DNA from: Planctomycetota bacterium
GTDB taxonomy: Bacteria; Planctomycetota; Planctomycetia; Pirellulales; Lacipirellulaceae
Length of the DNA stretch: 7,751 bases
Assembly: GCA_024278035.1 (NCBI GenBank)
Contig: JAJRUA010000126.1
Location: 1-7,751 of the forward strand
Direction: 5' to 3'
Positions within the stretch are counted from its first letter, which is position 1. Each line of letters opens with the position of its first letter. A program made the translations under genes and the position numbers. This document shows, piece after piece, positions 233 through 7,751 of the stretch. The notes under the pieces were generated by a model, which was not told where the DNA came from, searched no databases, and saw only the letters and a program-made list of their open reading frames with translations.

Positions 233-275
233 CTATAACTTGTGGGTCTTCCAGTTTCGCTACTGGAAAAACAAG

Positions 276-349
<74 letters not shown>

Positions 350-2593: not shown

Positions 2594-3235
2594 CTACGGA
2601 AAAAGAACGTTGATCTTAAACCGTCGAAAAAATGAGTCCTGAACCCCATTCACTGGTTCGAGGAGGCCGTAGGTTTGGATGTCGATATTGATGTCGAAGG
2701 CACTCACCGACTTCGTGCCCACGGCAGTGTCTGCTGACTGTGCAAAGAAGGCCATAATTTCGTACGCATCGGGACCTGGTTGACCGAAGGTATTCCGGTA
2801 ATCTTTCATGTAGACACATTGTTTTATTAAGATCAACGCAACGAGAATTACAACGCCAATCGGTAAAATTTTATTGATCTTCCGTTGCTTCTCTCGACTG
2901 TACAACTTCGGAGGAAAAAAACCTAGGAGAAACAAAACGGGAAAGGAAAGAATTACGACAGAGATTTGGGATAGAAAAAAAAGAAATTGCAGATGAGTTG
3001 GCCTGCTGAGGCTTCTCGGGTGCGGAACTGGCTCGCACATGAAGTAAACAAAGTAAGATAGGCTTACGCCTGCCAACGCGGCAATGAACCACTGCCAGCA
3101 AATTCGGTAACGATTGCCTGCCCTATCGAAGAAAAAAAACAGCAGCATCAGTGGAAAGAGGACCACCAAGTAGGGAGCAAAACCATACGCAGTAAAATGG
3201 CGTAATGCAAAACTAAGCGATCCCATTTTTTCCAT
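2594..3235 (-). CDS. Chimera: four-helix membrane module with truncated hydrolase tail (copy D)
   Basis: This 213-residue protein is the last member of the array. Its four hydrophobic segments are at about 20-36, 47-67, 82-108 and 123-143. The short loops DRAGNRYR and KLYSREKQRKINK are basic, so the N and C termini should face outward by the positive-inside rule. From about residue 150 (FGQPGPDAYEIMAFFAQSAD) to 192 it matches the C-terminal part of the exported hydrolase at 4944, more closely than copy B does. Similarity then stops and about 20 unrelated residues lead to a TAG. The segment with the putative catalytic His is lost, so it cannot be an enzyme. I chose ATG 3235 because GGAGAAG precedes it by five bases; an in-frame TTG at 3253 lies upstream of that site and is unlikely. 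It may be functional or a decaying remnant. The membrane module is not a family I recognise. Confidence 0.7.
   Translation of the reverse strand: MEKMGSLSFALRHFTAYGFAPYLVVLFPLMLLFFFFDRAGNRYRICWQWFIAALAGVSLSYFVYFMCEPVPHPRSLSRPTHLQFLFFLSQISVVILSFPVLFLLGFFPPKLYSREKQRKINKILPIGVVILVALILIKQCVYMKDYRNTFGQPGPDAYEIMAFFAQSADTAVGTKSVSAFDINIDIQTYGLLEPVNGVQDSFFRRFKINVLFP
2624..2658. repeat. Junction sequence replacing the rest of the hydrolase tail
   Basis: On the minus strand, similarity between copy D and the hydrolase gene ends at about 2659 (shared word CGAGGAGGCC, 2659-2668, plus strand). The sequence beyond it contains, on the plus strand, TCGAAAAAATGAGTCCTG followed by AACCCCATT (2624-2650). It resembles AATGGGGTCAGGAGTC-type words I recall from short dispersed elements near Y1-transposase genes in other bacteria. 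That resemblance is from memory and only one copy is present here. Confidence 0.25.
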
Positions 3236-3253
3236 CTTTTCTTCTCCAAGCAA

Positions 3254-3338
3254 AAGACCTTCCTGCTTCTTTCCGTCGCTTTTCGGTAAGGCCTAAAATA
3301 TTCACGGGGTGACAGTCGTGGACGATGGTGATATCCGT
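3254..3338 (-). other. Spacer between copies C and D with no similarity to the other spacers
   Basis: The two spacers A-B and B-C are alike, but this one is longer and different. It follows immediately after the last bases that copy C shares with the others (ending at 3339). Only its right end in transcription order, TTTTGCTTGGAGAAGAAAAG just before the copy D start, resembles the common leader. It can pair CACGG with CCGTG across about 27 bases (near 3303-3339). I see no gene in it. It probably replaced the lost hydrolase tail of copy C. Confidence 0.45.
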
Positions 3339-3346
3339 GGTAGTCT

Positions 3347-3793
3347 TTACATAAAAACGCATTGTTTTATTACGATCCACGCAACGAGGATGGCAACGCC
3401 AATCGGTATGATCTTTCTGATCTTCCGTTGCTTCTCTCGACAGTACAACTTGGGTGGAAATAACCCAAGGAAAAAAAGAGCGGGGAAGGAGGGGATCGCG
3501 ACAGAGATCAAGGACAGGAATAAAAGCAATAGCAGAAAATCTGGCCCGCCGTGGCTTCTCGCCGGTGAGACTGGCTCACAGATGAAGTAAACAAAGGCAG
3601 ATAAGCTTACGGATGCTAGTAAGGCAGCGAACCACTGCCAGCATATCCGATAACGGTTGCCTGTCTTGTCGAAGAAAAAAAACAACAGCATCAGTGGGAC
3701 GAAGACCACCAAGCTGGGAAGAAGGCAGAGCATCGCCTCCCAGGGGCTGTGGATAACCTCCCTTAAAAAACTACCAAAAATTCCCCTCAACAT
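3347..3793 (-). CDS. Four-helix membrane module alone, truncated by a frameshift (copy C)
   Basis: This 148-residue hydrophobic protein aligns with the membrane module of copies B and D throughout. Shared marks are LMLLFFFF, NRYRICWQWF, ICEP, SFPALFFLGLFPPKLY and the basic KQRKIRK loop before the last helix. Helices are at about 23-41, 52-72, 86-112 and 128-146. The frame ends directly after the last helix at VFM. In B and D the matching ATG is followed by AAAGA(C/T)TACC and the protein continues with KDYR. Here a single extra base (plus-strand A at 3349) turns this into ATG-TAA. Even without it, the next 80 bases are unrelated, so the hydrolase-derived tail is gone. The start ATG at 3793 has GGAGAG about seven bases before it and a leader like that of copy B. 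It is 53 bases from the end of copy B and probably cotranscribed. It could be a stable small membrane protein or a pseudogene. Confidence 0.65.
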   Translation of the reverse strand: MLRGIFGSFLREVIHSPWEAMLCLLPSLVVFVPLMLLFFFFDKTGNRYRICWQWFAALLASVSLSAFVYFICEPVSPARSHGGPDFLLLLLFLSLISVAIPSFPALFFLGLFPPKLYCREKQRKIRKIIPIGVAILVAWIVIKQCVFM

Positions 3794-3846
3794 ATTTTTC
3801 TCTCCAAGCCAACGAACATGCGAACTTATCTACGCAAAAAAATTGC
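3794..3846 (-). repeat. Duplicated intergenic leader, copy 2 (between B and C)
   Basis: This 53-base spacer matches the spacer at 4891-4943: a small stem-loop beginning at the preceding stop codon, then (minus strand) GCATGTTCGT, GCTTGGAG and the start codon. The stem is the weaker of the two, UAAGCAA with UUGCGUA with one A/G mismatch, around five U. The equal length and shared words show that B and C arose by a tandem duplication that included the leader. Confidence 0.7.
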
Positions 3847-4890
3847 TTACGCTTGCCACGGAGAGAGTGAAGCGATGCCACCTTCCAGCGTCTCGAAAAC
3901 AAGTTCATGGAGCTTCTCGTCCGGTGCCTTCTCCTCCTTATCGAGGCGACGCGAAAAAACCGACTCGTCAGATTCTTCCAAAGGATCGAACCTGTCCTCC
4001 GTCAGCAGTAGGTCTAAGCGTGTGATTCGATCCGGCTGACCAAGCTGCTCGAACACAGCGGCGCGGGGAGCTATTTCAGGACGGAAAGCAACGGAGTTTT
4101 TCCTTGTGGGCCGGAACAAGCCCCTCGCAATTTCGGCATCCGATTTTATCTCGACTGCCGCGACCGTGGCTGCAACACTGTTGGCAAACGCTGGTTGAGT
4201 CGAAGCAAAACCAATCTCAGTCTTGAGCGATTCGTAGAATTGCCATGTTTCGGCCGCGTCGTGGACGAATTGATAGGAATGATTGGCGTCCAGACCGTTG
4301 CCCCCGAAGAGACCGAAGGTTTGGATGTCGATGTTGGTATCAAACCGACTGACAGACTTGGTGCCGACAGCGGTGCTGGCCGACTGCGCGAAAAACGCCA
4401 GGATCTTGTAGGCGTTTATATCGGCGCGACCAATGGCTTCTCGGTAGTCTTTCATGTAGACGCGGTATTTCATGAAAATCAACGCGGTGAGGATGCCCAC
4501 GCCAATCGGCGCGATCTTTCTGATTTTGAGTTGTCTTTCTTGGCTGTAGGATTTCGGAGGAAATAGGCCAAGGAGAAATAAAGCAGGAAACGAAGGGACA
4601 CCAACAGTTGCTAGAAAGAAGAGTGAAAGTAATTGCAGATAAACGTTGCCATCTACTGTGCCTGGGCTCCTTTTGTGCGATTGGCTATAATACGGCTCAC
4701 ACATGAAATAAATAGAGGTTCCTAGGGCAACGACCGCCATTAAGACAACGAACCACTGCCAGTAAGTCCGATAACGGTCGCCGGCCCTGTTGAAGAAAAA
4801 AAACAGTAGCAACAGTGGGATGAAAACTACTAGGCTGAGAACAAGGACCAATGCAAGTGGCATCCCGAATAAATAATCCAACGCTATCAT
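3847..4890 (-). CDS. Chimera: four-helix membrane module fused to a hydrolase C-terminal half (copy B)
   Basis: This 347-residue protein is the fullest member of the array. The membrane module spans residues 1-146, with helices at about 11-33, 43-63, 83-110 and 126-146. Basic loops lie between helices 1-2 and 3-4, so the C-terminal part should be outside. From about 154 to the end it aligns with the exported hydrolase at 4944, roughly 70% identical by eye over the first 80 residues. It keeps ANHSYQ, whose His (204) is the probable catalytic His in the hydrolase, and it keeps the ending LHELVFETLEGG. The Ser-bearing half of the hydrolase fold is missing, so it should not be active alone. I chose ATG 4890 over the in-frame TTG 4920, because GGAGG lies seven bases before 4890 and the TTG lies upstream of it. 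It starts 53 bases after the hydrolase stop and is probably in the same operon. The membrane module family is unknown to me. Confidence 0.75.
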   Translation of the reverse strand: MIALDYLFGMPLALVLVLSLVVFIPLLLLFFFFNRAGDRYRTYWQWFVVLMAVVALGTSIYFMCEPYYSQSHKRSPGTVDGNVYLQLLSLFFLATVGVPSFPALFLLGLFPPKSYSQERQLKIRKIAPIGVGILTALIFMKYRVYMKDYREAIGRADINAYKILAFFAQSASTAVGTKSVSRFDTNIDIQTFGLFGGNGLDANHSYQFVHDAAETWQFYESLKTEIGFASTQPAFANSVAATVAAVEIKSDAEIARGLFRPTRKNSVAFRPEIAPRAAVFEQLGQPDRITRLDLLLTEDRFDPLEESDESVFSRRLDKEEKAPDEKLHELVFETLEGGIASLSPWQA

Positions 4891-4943
4891 CTCTTTTCCT
4901 CCAAGCAAACGAACATGCAAACTTGTCTAGGCAGAAAATCTGC
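4891..4943 (-). repeat. Duplicated intergenic leader, copy 1 (between A and B)
   Basis: This spacer carries the same order of elements as the spacer at 3794-3846: stop-codon stem-loop, GCATGTTCGT word, GCTTGGAGG ribosome binding site and start codon. The GGAGG here decides the copy B start at 4890. Confidence 0.7.
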
Positions 4944-4946
4944 CTA
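4928..4946 (-). promoter_or_regulatory. Stem-loop over the hydrolase stop codon
   Basis: A perfect 8-bp inverted repeat, TAGGCAGA and TCTGCCTA with a three-base loop, begins with the TAG stop codon of the hydrolase gene. No U run follows, so it is not a standard terminator. It could slow ribosomes, stabilise the upstream message or tune expression of copy B relative to the hydrolase. A weaker stem lies at the same place after copy B. Confidence 0.5.
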
Positions 4947-5537
4947 AGTTCGCCACAAGGAGAGCAAAGAGAGGTCGTCTTCCAAGGTCTCGAAAACAAG
5001 GTCGTGTAGCTTCCCGTCCGACGCCTTCTCCTCTTTCTCACGGTGACGCAGAAAATCCAACTCTTCGGAATCTTTCAAGAGACCGGAGCTGTCTTCCGCA
5101 AGCAATAGATCCAAGCGGGTGATTCGTGCCGAGTGACTAAGCTGCTCGAATACCGTGTCGCGAACAGCCGTTGCTGGGCGAAAATTGATTGCGTTTCGTT
5201 TTGTAGGCTGGAACAAGCTCCGCGCAGTTCCGGCACCGGGCTCTACTACGGCACTAGCGCTGACACTAGCACTTGCACTGGCGGCTGCACTCTGAGTCGA
5301 AGCAAAGCCTAGCTCGGTTTTGAGCCTGTCGTAAAAAACCCACGTTTCTGCTGCATCGTGAGCGAGCTGATATGAATGATTGGCGCGAATCCCATTGCCG
5401 CCGAGGAGGCCGAAGGTTTGGATATTGATGTTGGTGTTGAAGGCATTCACCGATTTCGTGCCGAGGGCAGTGTCAGCCGATAACGCGAAAAAGGCCATAA
5501 TTTCATAAGCATCACGCCCTGGTTGGCCAAAGGGATC
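4944..5537 (-). repeat. Source copy of the repeated hydrolase tail
   Basis: This segment, from DPFGQPGRDAYEIMAFFALS to the stop, is repeated in copy B (about 3847-4431) and in shortened form in copy D (about 2659-2787). The nucleotide match is obvious by eye; for example GGTTTGGAT and the block around CCATAATTTC (plus strand) recur. It begins in mid-domain of the hydrolase, so the duplication breakpoint lies inside a folded domain and not at a domain edge. Confidence 0.75.
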
Positions 5538-7751
5538 GGTCAACGTCAGCGAAACAGTGGGAGCGGGCTGGAATCGCTGAAAATCGTCGTTGTTGGTATT
5601 GTTGCCATCGCCGGCAACAAAACTATAATCGTAGGGCCAAACACTTGATTGAACGTGCAAATTCTTGGTGAAGTTGCCCAAATCCCATAGGTCCAGCGCA
5701 AAGTCGTCCACGTTATACATGTTGATTCGTTTTTCAGCGGAGAAACCGGCACCACTGAAATAGGATTGCGTTCCCAAGCCAGGAACCGATAACCCATTTC
5801 GACCGTGGGACCAAAACCGGTAAAGGTCGGGGATGGGCCTGCCAATAATTCGCGAGTCGGTATCATTGCTGCCATAGGCACCGGCAGAAACGGCTGCTTG
5901 CATTGCGACGTAGTTGGTCACAAGAGGATCGTCGTTGGACGGAAAATCCCAGGCCCATTGGCGCAGCGCTTCGCCGGCGACGATATTGCCCATGCTGTGG
6001 GCCAGAAGATGGACCGGCTGGAGATTGGGAGCGTTGCCACGATAGTCGGCGAGAATTTCCTTTAAGGCATTTGCAGAGCGGTAAGCCTGGAAATCGCTTG
6101 GATTGTAGGTGTTCCCCAAAAAGCCTGCGGGAAAATACGTTGGCCAATTGAATGCCACAAATTCGCCGCGATACCCCTGCCAGTAGAGCCGCTTGAACAT
6201 CGTCTCGGCACCAGCAGCCTTTTCATCGTTGTTGGGAGCATCCGAATTGTTCCAACCGTGGACATAAACGATTGTCTCATTGCCGCTGAGGAACGGCTTG
6301 TTCTGAATTTGCGACACATGGGTCTCGGTCCCTGGCGCGGGCGTGTCAAAATCCTTGAAACTCAAATCAGTACGTAGATCGGTGCCAGTTGCGCCGCCGT
6401 TGACGCCGTAGTCGATGTCCCATCGTGTGTAAAGATCCTTGATATCGCGTAGATCGAGATCGATCTCTTGATGCTTGACGACCAGTTTGCCGTTACCGTA
6501 CCGGACGAACGTAGAGAAAACCAAAGTCGGTGTGGCAGCGAATCCAGAACCGTACTGACCTCCCACTGCCTCGAAGAGAAACGAGTTGAGGCCGCTTTGG
6601 ATATTGCCTAGCTCGTGCTCAATGGAACTCGCTCCAAGGGCCACGCTCCAAAACGGATTCACTCCCTGCTCTGCCTGAACTCCTGCAACGAAATCGTCGT
6701 TGAGGTATTCAAGGACATCACTGCCGGTTCCGGCGGAATTGAATAGCCGAATCGAAGCACCGCCAGCGCCTTCCAAGACGATTCGATAGGTTGTCTGTAT
6801 TTGACCGGCTGCGGGTGTACCAGGACCCGCTGTGTTGAACGTGTTATCAACCAAAAGAGGATCAATTTCGATCCGTAGCGGCGCTAGATCCTCCAGGTCA
6901 CGTCTCTGACCAATGGACTCATCCGTATTGTCCGGCGTGGTGATATTGGTCTGTTCGGCCTCGACGCTGGTGTTGGCCGCATGATCGCCCTCCTGGTCGT
7001 TGTTCAACCAAAACAGCAGTTGACGGTCGTAGCTACTGCCGAAATCGATTTGGGTATCACGGTTGCCATCGACGCCGATTGCCGTATCGACCACCGTGTA
7101 AATAACACTGTCAGATAAGGCTGGCCCCGTCGATGATGAAACAGCATCCACCAAAATAGACTCCGTTGCAAAGCTCGCACTGCTCGCGAGGCCTTCGATC
7201 TGGAAATCGAGATGAACCGTATCAGGAGTGAGTAGGGTTCCAGAAGGAATCTGAAGATACCCTCCTCCAACCCCATTCATTCCTGGCCACAAAGTCGTTG
7301 TCCATAGACGAATATCCGTATCGTTATAAGTAAACGTGATTCCATAATCGCCAAGCATTGACGGATCGATGCGTATCGATCCCGTAGTAAAATCTTCTGC
7401 AGCGTTGGGGTCGTAGACGTTGGAGGCCGCTTGATAGTCAGGAAGGTAAAGGTCCAGGCCTGCTTCAAGCTGAGTCGGAGCAAGAACCTCTTTGGAAAAA
7501 TCACTGTTGCGAAAAACAATGGCTCCTGGTGCCGTCTCTTCCGCTTCTCCCAGGGTATCGACAACGAGATTCAAGAAGGGAGAATCGGGCCGCGTGGTTC
7601 CGAAATTATCTCGTTGTACCGTGTAGTCCGCAGCATCGACCACGCCGTTGCCATTGCCGTCGGTGGCGAGATTGGTTGTCGAGCCAAAATTGGCGGCCCA
7701 AAGATTGTAATCTTCCTGGCCGACGGAGTTGTTGCCCGAGTAGTCTCCGGC
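4944..7751 (-). CDS. Exported dockerin-containing alpha/beta hydrolase (copy A), 5' end outside window
   Basis: The frame is open to the right edge, so 935 residues are visible and the start and any signal peptide are missing. Numbered from the edge, residues 3-26 and 28-53 form two dockerin-type calcium-binding repeats, the second with D31, N33, N35, D39 and D42. Residues 60-480 are acidic, beta-rich and unrecognised. An alpha/beta-hydrolase domain of the DUF900-like type follows: VHGWN at 497-501 (oxyanion region), AHSMGN with nucleophile Ser586, an acid candidate in NVDDFAL (Asp682/683), and NHSYQ with probable catalytic His792. The elbow reads A-H-S-M-G rather than G-x-S-x-G. Residues 817-840 are Ala/Ser-rich and low in complexity, followed by a tail ending LHDLVFETLEDDLSLLSLWRT-like. 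It is probably a secreted or surface esterase or lipase of unknown substrate. Its last 197 codons (4944-5537) are copied in whole or part in the downstream chimeras. Confidence 0.8.
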   Translation of the reverse strand, partial: AGDYSGNNSVGQEDYNLWAANFGSTTNLATDGNGNGVVDAADYTVQRDNFGTTRPDSPFLNLVVDTLGEAEETAPGAIVFRNSDFSKEVLAPTQLEAGLDLYLPDYQAASNVYDPNAAEDFTTGSIRIDPSMLGDYGITFTYNDTDIRLWTTTLWPGMNGVGGGYLQIPSGTLLTPDTVHLDFQIEGLASSASFATESILVDAVSSSTGPALSDSVIYTVVDTAIGVDGNRDTQIDFGSSYDRQLLFWLNNDQEGDHAANTSVEAEQTNITTPDNTDESIGQRRDLEDLAPLRIEIDPLLVDNTFNTAGPGTPAAGQIQTTYRIVLEGAGGASIRLFNSAGTGSDVLEYLNDDFVAGVQAEQGVNPFWSVALGASSIEHELGNIQSGLNSFLFEAVGGQYGSGFAATPTLVFSTFVRYGNGKLVVKHQEIDLDLRDIKDLYTRWDIDYGVNGGATGTDLRTDLSFKDFDTPAPGTETHVSQIQNKPFLSGNETIVYVHGWNNSDAPNNDEKAAGAETMFKRLYWQGYRGEFVAFNWPTYFPAGFLGNTYNPSDFQAYRSANALKEILADYRGNAPNLQPVHLLAHSMGNIVAGEALRQWAWDFPSNDDPLVTNYVAMQAAVSAGAYGSNDTDSRIIGRPIPDLYRFWSHGRNGLSVPGLGTQSYFSGAGFSAEKRINMYNVDDFALDLWDLGNFTKNLHVQSSVWPYDYSFVAGDGNNTNNDDFQRFQPAPTVSLTLTDPFGQPGRDAYEIMAFFALSADTALGTKSVNAFNTNINIQTFGLLGGNGIRANHSYQLAHDAAETWVFYDRLKTELGFASTQSAAASASASVSASAVVEPGAGTARSLFQPTKRNAINFRPATAVRDTVFEQLSHSARITRLDLLLAEDSSGLLKDSEELDFLRHREKEEKASDGKLHDLVFETLEDDLSLLSLWRT

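Follow-up and report, generated by a model that had tools for sequence, protein, structure and literature searches.

Chimeric genes are readily made by duplications and deletions, and it is an open question if they acquire a function. In Staphylococcus aureus, tandem duplications with short junctions yield nusG'-'sigH and rplK'-'sigH chimeras, as described in PMC3486894. Gene fusions born from deletions showed no clear beneficial function in the account given in PMC12803068. Here, we analyzed a contig from a Planctomycetota bacterium of the Lacipirellulaceae (JAJRUA010000126.1, assembly GCA_024278035.1); the whole contig, 7751 bp in length, is hereafter called the window. It carries a gene for a DUF900-type alpha/beta-hydrolase (H), whose 5' end runs off the contig, followed by an array of three short genes (B, C and D; Table 1). 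We propose that B is a chimera of a membrane module and a hydrolase tail that originated by tandem duplication and was then retained, a reading to which we give a probability of about 0.8.

The three short genes share an N-terminal membrane module, with protein identities of 56% (B/C), 72% (C/D) and 55% (B/D), and a common leader, TTGGAG being found upstream of the ATG in each of them. Since this leader is common to the short genes, the ATG starts at 4890 and 3235 are preferred for B and D, and the TTG starts listed for them are probably too long. Furthermore, B and D carry a copy of the C-terminal tail of H: residues 739-934 of H align with residues 161-356 of B (196 residues, 58% identical, E 3e-68) and residues 739-783 with residues 154-198 of D (the first 45 tail residues, 78% identical, E 1e-19). 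In D, the tail match ends at about position 2659-2660 and the codons that follow, down to 2594, are unrelated to the tail. The initial annotation of this DNA had reported both the shared module and leader and the two tail copies. It had also placed the joint near an FGQPG-like word, which is found in H and D, but B has IGRAD.

At the DNA level, positions 5497-4443 and 4400-3339 form one repeated stretch, 68% identical over 1083 columns with a period of 1097, and the C/D repeat has a period of 543. These DNA-level repeats are far above chance. The repeat unit is contiguous, comprising the hydrolase tail, a 53-nt spacer and the membrane gene, and the join is in frame. Since the repeat extends without a break from the tail through the spacer into the module, one tandem duplication suffices to explain the fusion.

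H matches PF05990 above the gathering score (E 9.6e-10, 38.7 bits for a cut-off of 20.5), and the AlphaFold2 model of its residues 440-825 reaches a predicted local distance difference test score (pLDDT) of 84 and a predicted template modeling score of 0.90. Ser586 is found in 28/28 aligned rows, and Asp683 and His792 in 27 each, with one gap each; their order and conservation make them the presumed catalytic residues. Dockerin-like features suggest that H is exported: dockerin-like repeats are seen by eye at its open end, and a sequence search of the PDB with a profile of H relatives (A7) matched the dockerin-type 2y3n (E 0.0012) on the N-terminal part of the homologues, besides eight weaker matches. 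Two points weigh against export, namely that the Pfam scan of H lists no dockerin and that no signal peptide is visible, the 5' end being off the contig. The tail of H gives a BLAST match in all 18 closest hydrolase relatives (P0005-P0021, i.e. the best 17 of 120 matches, plus P0004, itself found via the tail) and, at E 1e-3, in 35 of 121 hydrolase relatives. Most of its 196 residues are matched only in P0005, P0006, P0011 and P0012; elsewhere, about the first 70-150 residues are matched.

Outside the window, two relatives of the module were found. P0126 stops after the module and has no tail. P0003 combines the module with an unrelated, long, charged and coiled-coil-like C-terminus, its best match to H being only E 5.5. 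Hence, unfused modules exist, and module and tail do not appear to form one ancient protein family. Since the tail is found in all 18 closest relatives of H and these two modules lack it, the hydrolase is the most likely origin of the duplicated tail, and the module would previously have existed on its own. The different C-terminus of P0003 also suggests that fusions might recur at the module end. P0126 and the best-matching hydrolase, P0005, are each encoded on a jgi contig 6666 bp long and are probably neighbors on one contig. In the module tree, B, C and D are grouped (84/88; 82% of 200 bootstraps), with C and D nested within (98/96).

The protein searches covered candidates sharing short words with the query and having 0.55-1.75 times its size (~8000 each), and more distant module relatives may escape them. 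A first scan of genome contigs with B gave no relative, and neither did the viral contigs scanned with a module alignment that includes the coiled-coil end of P0003 (A4). The module profile A6 had no match at E 10 in genome G001, none at E 0.001 in the 43 genomes of its family, and only partial matches (E 0.003-0.007) in 4 of the 396 genomes of its order; the middle part of H was matched at E 1e-20 in 7 of these 396. These genome sets overlap and had no positive control, so that absence of the module from them is weak evidence. Two matches were set aside: the best one in the order (L036) is likely transposase DNA, judged by eye only, and the one found in the phylum (L047, 1 of 392 genomes, E 4e-5) covers 60 positions within an 804-aa frame and was taken as a chance transmembrane match.

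The ancestral state would have been a hydrolase gene followed by a gene encoding a small membrane protein. A tandem duplication that began inside the last third of the hydrolase gene and stopped where the membrane gene ends would have left both parents intact; at its join, module and hydrolase tail would have come into one reading frame, giving H - module::tail - module at once. The segment would then have been amplified again and eroded later. The end of the tail in D suggests a further unit, since lost. The sequence supports loss of the tail of C by frameshift and deletion and shortening of that of D; retention of B by selection is supported as well. The chimera join is too diverged for a short direct repeat to be read, and the tail trees leave the order of the duplications unsettled.

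At the joint, C reads ATGTAAAGACTACC versus ATG-AAAGA(C/T)TACC in B and D, and the extra base after ATG leads to a stop. The tail copy of D stops at the equivalent of residue 783 of H, before His792, and that of B retains this presumed catalytic His; both lack Ser586 and Asp683. Therefore, the initial description of the tails as having the His but not the Ser fits B; for D, only the lack of the Ser stands. C and D look eroded. B, for its part, remains open over 357 codons. The Nei-Gojobori ratios of nonsynonymous to synonymous divergence (dN/dS) are 0.31, 0.34 and 0.38 for the modules and 0.22, at a dS of 1.25, for the H/B tail pair. Over 81-82 tail columns compared with 18 outgroup hydrolases, H is identical in 38-61 columns and B in 38-56; for instance, both are alike P0006 in 56 columns, and H and B are alike P0019 in 54 and 47, respectively. 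The end branches of the tail tree measure 0.32 for H as for B. Since the tail of B diverged from the outgroups only slightly faster than that of H, B is likely to be under selection, its tail being apparently constrained nearly as much as H's own, although slightly less. Moreover, when neutral drift was simulated on B alone, a mean of 4.8 stops accumulated, only 8 of 1000 runs stayed stop-free, and amino-acid identity reached at most 0.51, versus 0.577 observed.

Several points weigh against this reading. Pairwise dN/dS averages both lineages, and over the first 45 tail codons H/D gives 0.10 while B is saturated in dS versus both H and D. When B is given only half the divergence, the frame stays open in 69 of the 1000 runs of neutral drift. 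The tail of B is behind that of H for 15 of the 18 outgroups, by at most 7 columns (tied for two, ahead for one). It is changed at 3 of the 12 columns invariant in 21 hydrolases, keeping 9, and keeps 31 of 35 near-invariant columns (4 changed; 34 kept in H). The structure model of B was too poor for use (pLDDT 44) and was discarded. H, B and P0005 are not separated in the tail tree (16% of bootstraps); because of this, the duplication could date back to the split between H and P0005, and P0126 might represent a later loss. Lastly, no module-tail fusion was found outside this contig among the proteins, loci and genomes searched.

The chimeras might thus be mere by-products, inert and part of an array on its way out, in which H and perhaps one module matter. 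The frameshift of C at the joint, the truncation of D and the lack of a fused relative among the proteins found, 35 hydrolase loci and the module-searched genomes (for which there was no positive control) would fit this explanation. However, it accounts poorly for a frame of 357 codons still open in B at a tail dS of about 1.25 with a dN/dS of 0.22, and for outgroup distances that are similar for the B tail and for the tail of H itself, and we consider it rather unlikely. The initial annotation had hesitated between membrane partners and a family being lost; both seem to apply, the tail of B being constrained, C carrying a stop and D being cut short.

Another explanation, which is that of the initial annotation, has the fusion first and the finished gene copied afterwards. 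The C/D period differs from that of the larger repeat and could point to such a later copy. However, the spacer between H and B recurs between B and C, again preceded by the tail and followed by the module. This is expected from a single segmental duplication, and two events are unneeded. A non-hydrolase membrane gene fused to a duplicated tail, in a unit repeated in tandem, is therefore kept from the initial annotation, whereas a separate fusion followed by copying is made superfluous by the continuous DNA repeat and appears improbable.

In a hydropathy scan, C, D, P0003 and P0126 each show four hydrophobic segments and B shows just three that exceed the threshold, so that the four-helix module initially described holds for C and D but not fully for B. 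Among the loops, the third is the most positively charged in all five module rows, which suggests that the part following the last membrane segment lies on the outer face; against this, the topology is weak, as loop 1 is not above loop 2 in D and P0126. Lipase foldases have one hydrophobic segment, and Pfam includes a foldase model; at E 0.1, no foldase was matched by the five module rows, and one row matched two domains of unknown function at about half the cut-off. B would have its module in the membrane and its tail on the outer face, and would bind or hold H or the sister modules without catalysis. Only tentatively do we propose that B serves the hydrolase as a membrane-tethered partner. 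It is more doubtful that its tail is the working, His-bearing last third of the hydrolase, retained by selection apart from the enzyme and docking on H or on the sister modules so as to hold the hydrolase at the membrane, activate it or inhibit it. If this were true, the join of a duplication would have turned the tail of an enzyme into its regulator.

The genes next to related hydrolases bear on this partner role. In 35 hydrolase loci from genome contigs, the downstream gene was defined as the longest ATG-initiated frame (minimum 200 aa) starting -20 to +400 nt from the hydrolase stop. Such a frame is found in 27 loci; the remaining 8 have none, or the script did not reach them. Twenty-four of these frames belong to one BLAST-linked family of ~350 aa, 14 of them overlapping the hydrolase by 4 nt and 23 of the 24 having an N-terminal hydrophobic segment. 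The corresponding loci (L006-L029), which come from about 20 assemblies by accession, belong mostly to Verrucomicrobia, and also to Holophagaceae (L010) and Alteromonadaceae (L028). Of four members scanned with Pfam, two gave sub-threshold immunoglobulin-like or carboxypeptidase-regulatory matches. Planctomycete loci differ from this pattern. The nearest named relative of H, from a metagenome-assembled genome of Planctomycetaceae (L001), is followed 7 nt further by a 65-aa frame (1339-1536) with two hydrophobic segments and a sub-threshold Pfam match to NMN_transporter (E 0.005). WD40-like (by eye) and leucine-rich repeat (LRR) proteins are encoded downstream in L002 and L003, in L004 the frame is 366 aa long and has LRRs as well as several hydrophobic segments, and L005 has no long frame directly past the hydrolase on the same strand. 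Hence, a membrane-anchored next gene is common in this hydrolase family. Because of this frequent neighborhood, a partner role is favored for the module, which has no detectable homology with the ~350-aa family. The module itself, which the initial annotation suggested might always lie beside such hydrolases, is found in none of the 35 loci (best tblastn E 0.06).

Finally, a toxin-immunity array, with H as a secreted toxic lipase, the modules as immunity proteins and the tails as rearrangement leftovers, would share with the orphan cdiA-CT/cdiI arrays of PMC3150448 the repeated order of tail and downstream partner, but it is very improbable, as the tails are alike rather than polymorphic (58% and 78% identical to H) and amount to one third of a single hydrolase fold without Ser or Asp, and delivery genes are not seen within the 7.7 kb.

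Table 1. Features of the hydrolase locus (positions in the window)
Feature	Position	Strand	Evidence
H, DUF900-type alpha/beta-hydrolase	4944..7751 (5' end open)	-	PF05990 match, AlphaFold2 model, conserved Ser/Asp/His
T1, C-terminal tail native to H (residues 739-935), probable source of the copies	4944..5537	-	BLAST and alignment of 18 relatives
Spacer H-B, 53 nt, leader and Shine-Dalgarno-like GGAGG	4891..4943	-	44/54 columns identical to spacer B-C
Gene B, ATG at 4890	4890-3847	-	module and full-length hydrolase tail
B module, membrane part	4450..4890	-	56% to C, 50% to P0003, 49% to P0126
T2, full-length hydrolase tail fused to the B module	3847..4440	-	58% to H 739-934
Spacer B-C, 53 nt	3794..3846	-	copy of spacer H-B
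Gene C, 148 aa, module only, frame lost at the joint	3347..3793	-	72% to D
Gene D, ATG at 3235	3235-2594	-	module and partial tail
D module	2804..3235	-	79% DNA identity to C over 383 columns
T4, first 45 tail codons fused to the D module	2660..2794	-	81% DNA identity to H 5402-5536 over 135 nt

Elsewhere in the window, a gene convergent with the array (748-2325, + strand) encodes squalene-cyclase/prenyltransferase-type repeats (PF13243, E 4.2e-8) and a hydrophobic segment seen by eye. Between the two convergent genes lies a GC-rich imperfect palindrome (2451-2471), resembling by eye a repetitive extragenic palindromic element, of which no exact copy was found in 47 loci. A tRNA-Met (CAT) is located at 275-349 (- strand).

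Parents, a constrained chimera and decaying sisters stand here in one row, which makes the path from a duplication to a kept protein readable. Beyond this locus, the data point to DUF900-type hydrolases being paired more widely with a membrane-anchored protein encoded downstream. No description of an array of this layout was found in the literature searched by titles and abstract openings; however, the initial statement that no described system has such a layout was too strong, since the sigH chimeras (PMC3486894) and the cdiA-CT/cdiI arrays (PMC3150448) are comparable. In PMC11878206, DUF900 (PF05990) members from alpha-proteobacteria are presented as being of unknown function; unlike them, H is a long multi-part protein. 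In LipA-LipH operons, an exported lipase and a membrane-anchored partner are encoded together (PMC13381987), an arrangement comparable to that of H and its putative partners. Unlike the LipH foldase, the module has no Pfam foldase match and has three to four hydrophobic segments. In orphan cdiA-CT/cdiI arrays, as here, the tail of the upstream gene and its partner are repeated past the full-length gene (PMC3150448). According to the same source, cdiA-CT tails often have nothing in common past VENN and start signals are missing from most of them, whereas here the tails resemble each other and continue the reading frame of the partner gene that precedes them. Taking S. aureus sigH as the analogue, join-point chimeras as such are already known. 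As proposed for the window, a segment running from inside the upstream gene to inside the downstream gene was duplicated, leaving the parents intact, and the head of the downstream gene was fused in frame to the tail of the upstream gene, with units of 1210 and 1888 bp (PMC3486894) for a period of 1097 here. The sigH duplications are reported as laboratory-selected and reversible, and their chimeras contain nearly the whole sigma factor (PMC3486894); unlike them, the present array appears old (dS about 1), repeated and divergent, and the fused part is one third of an enzyme.

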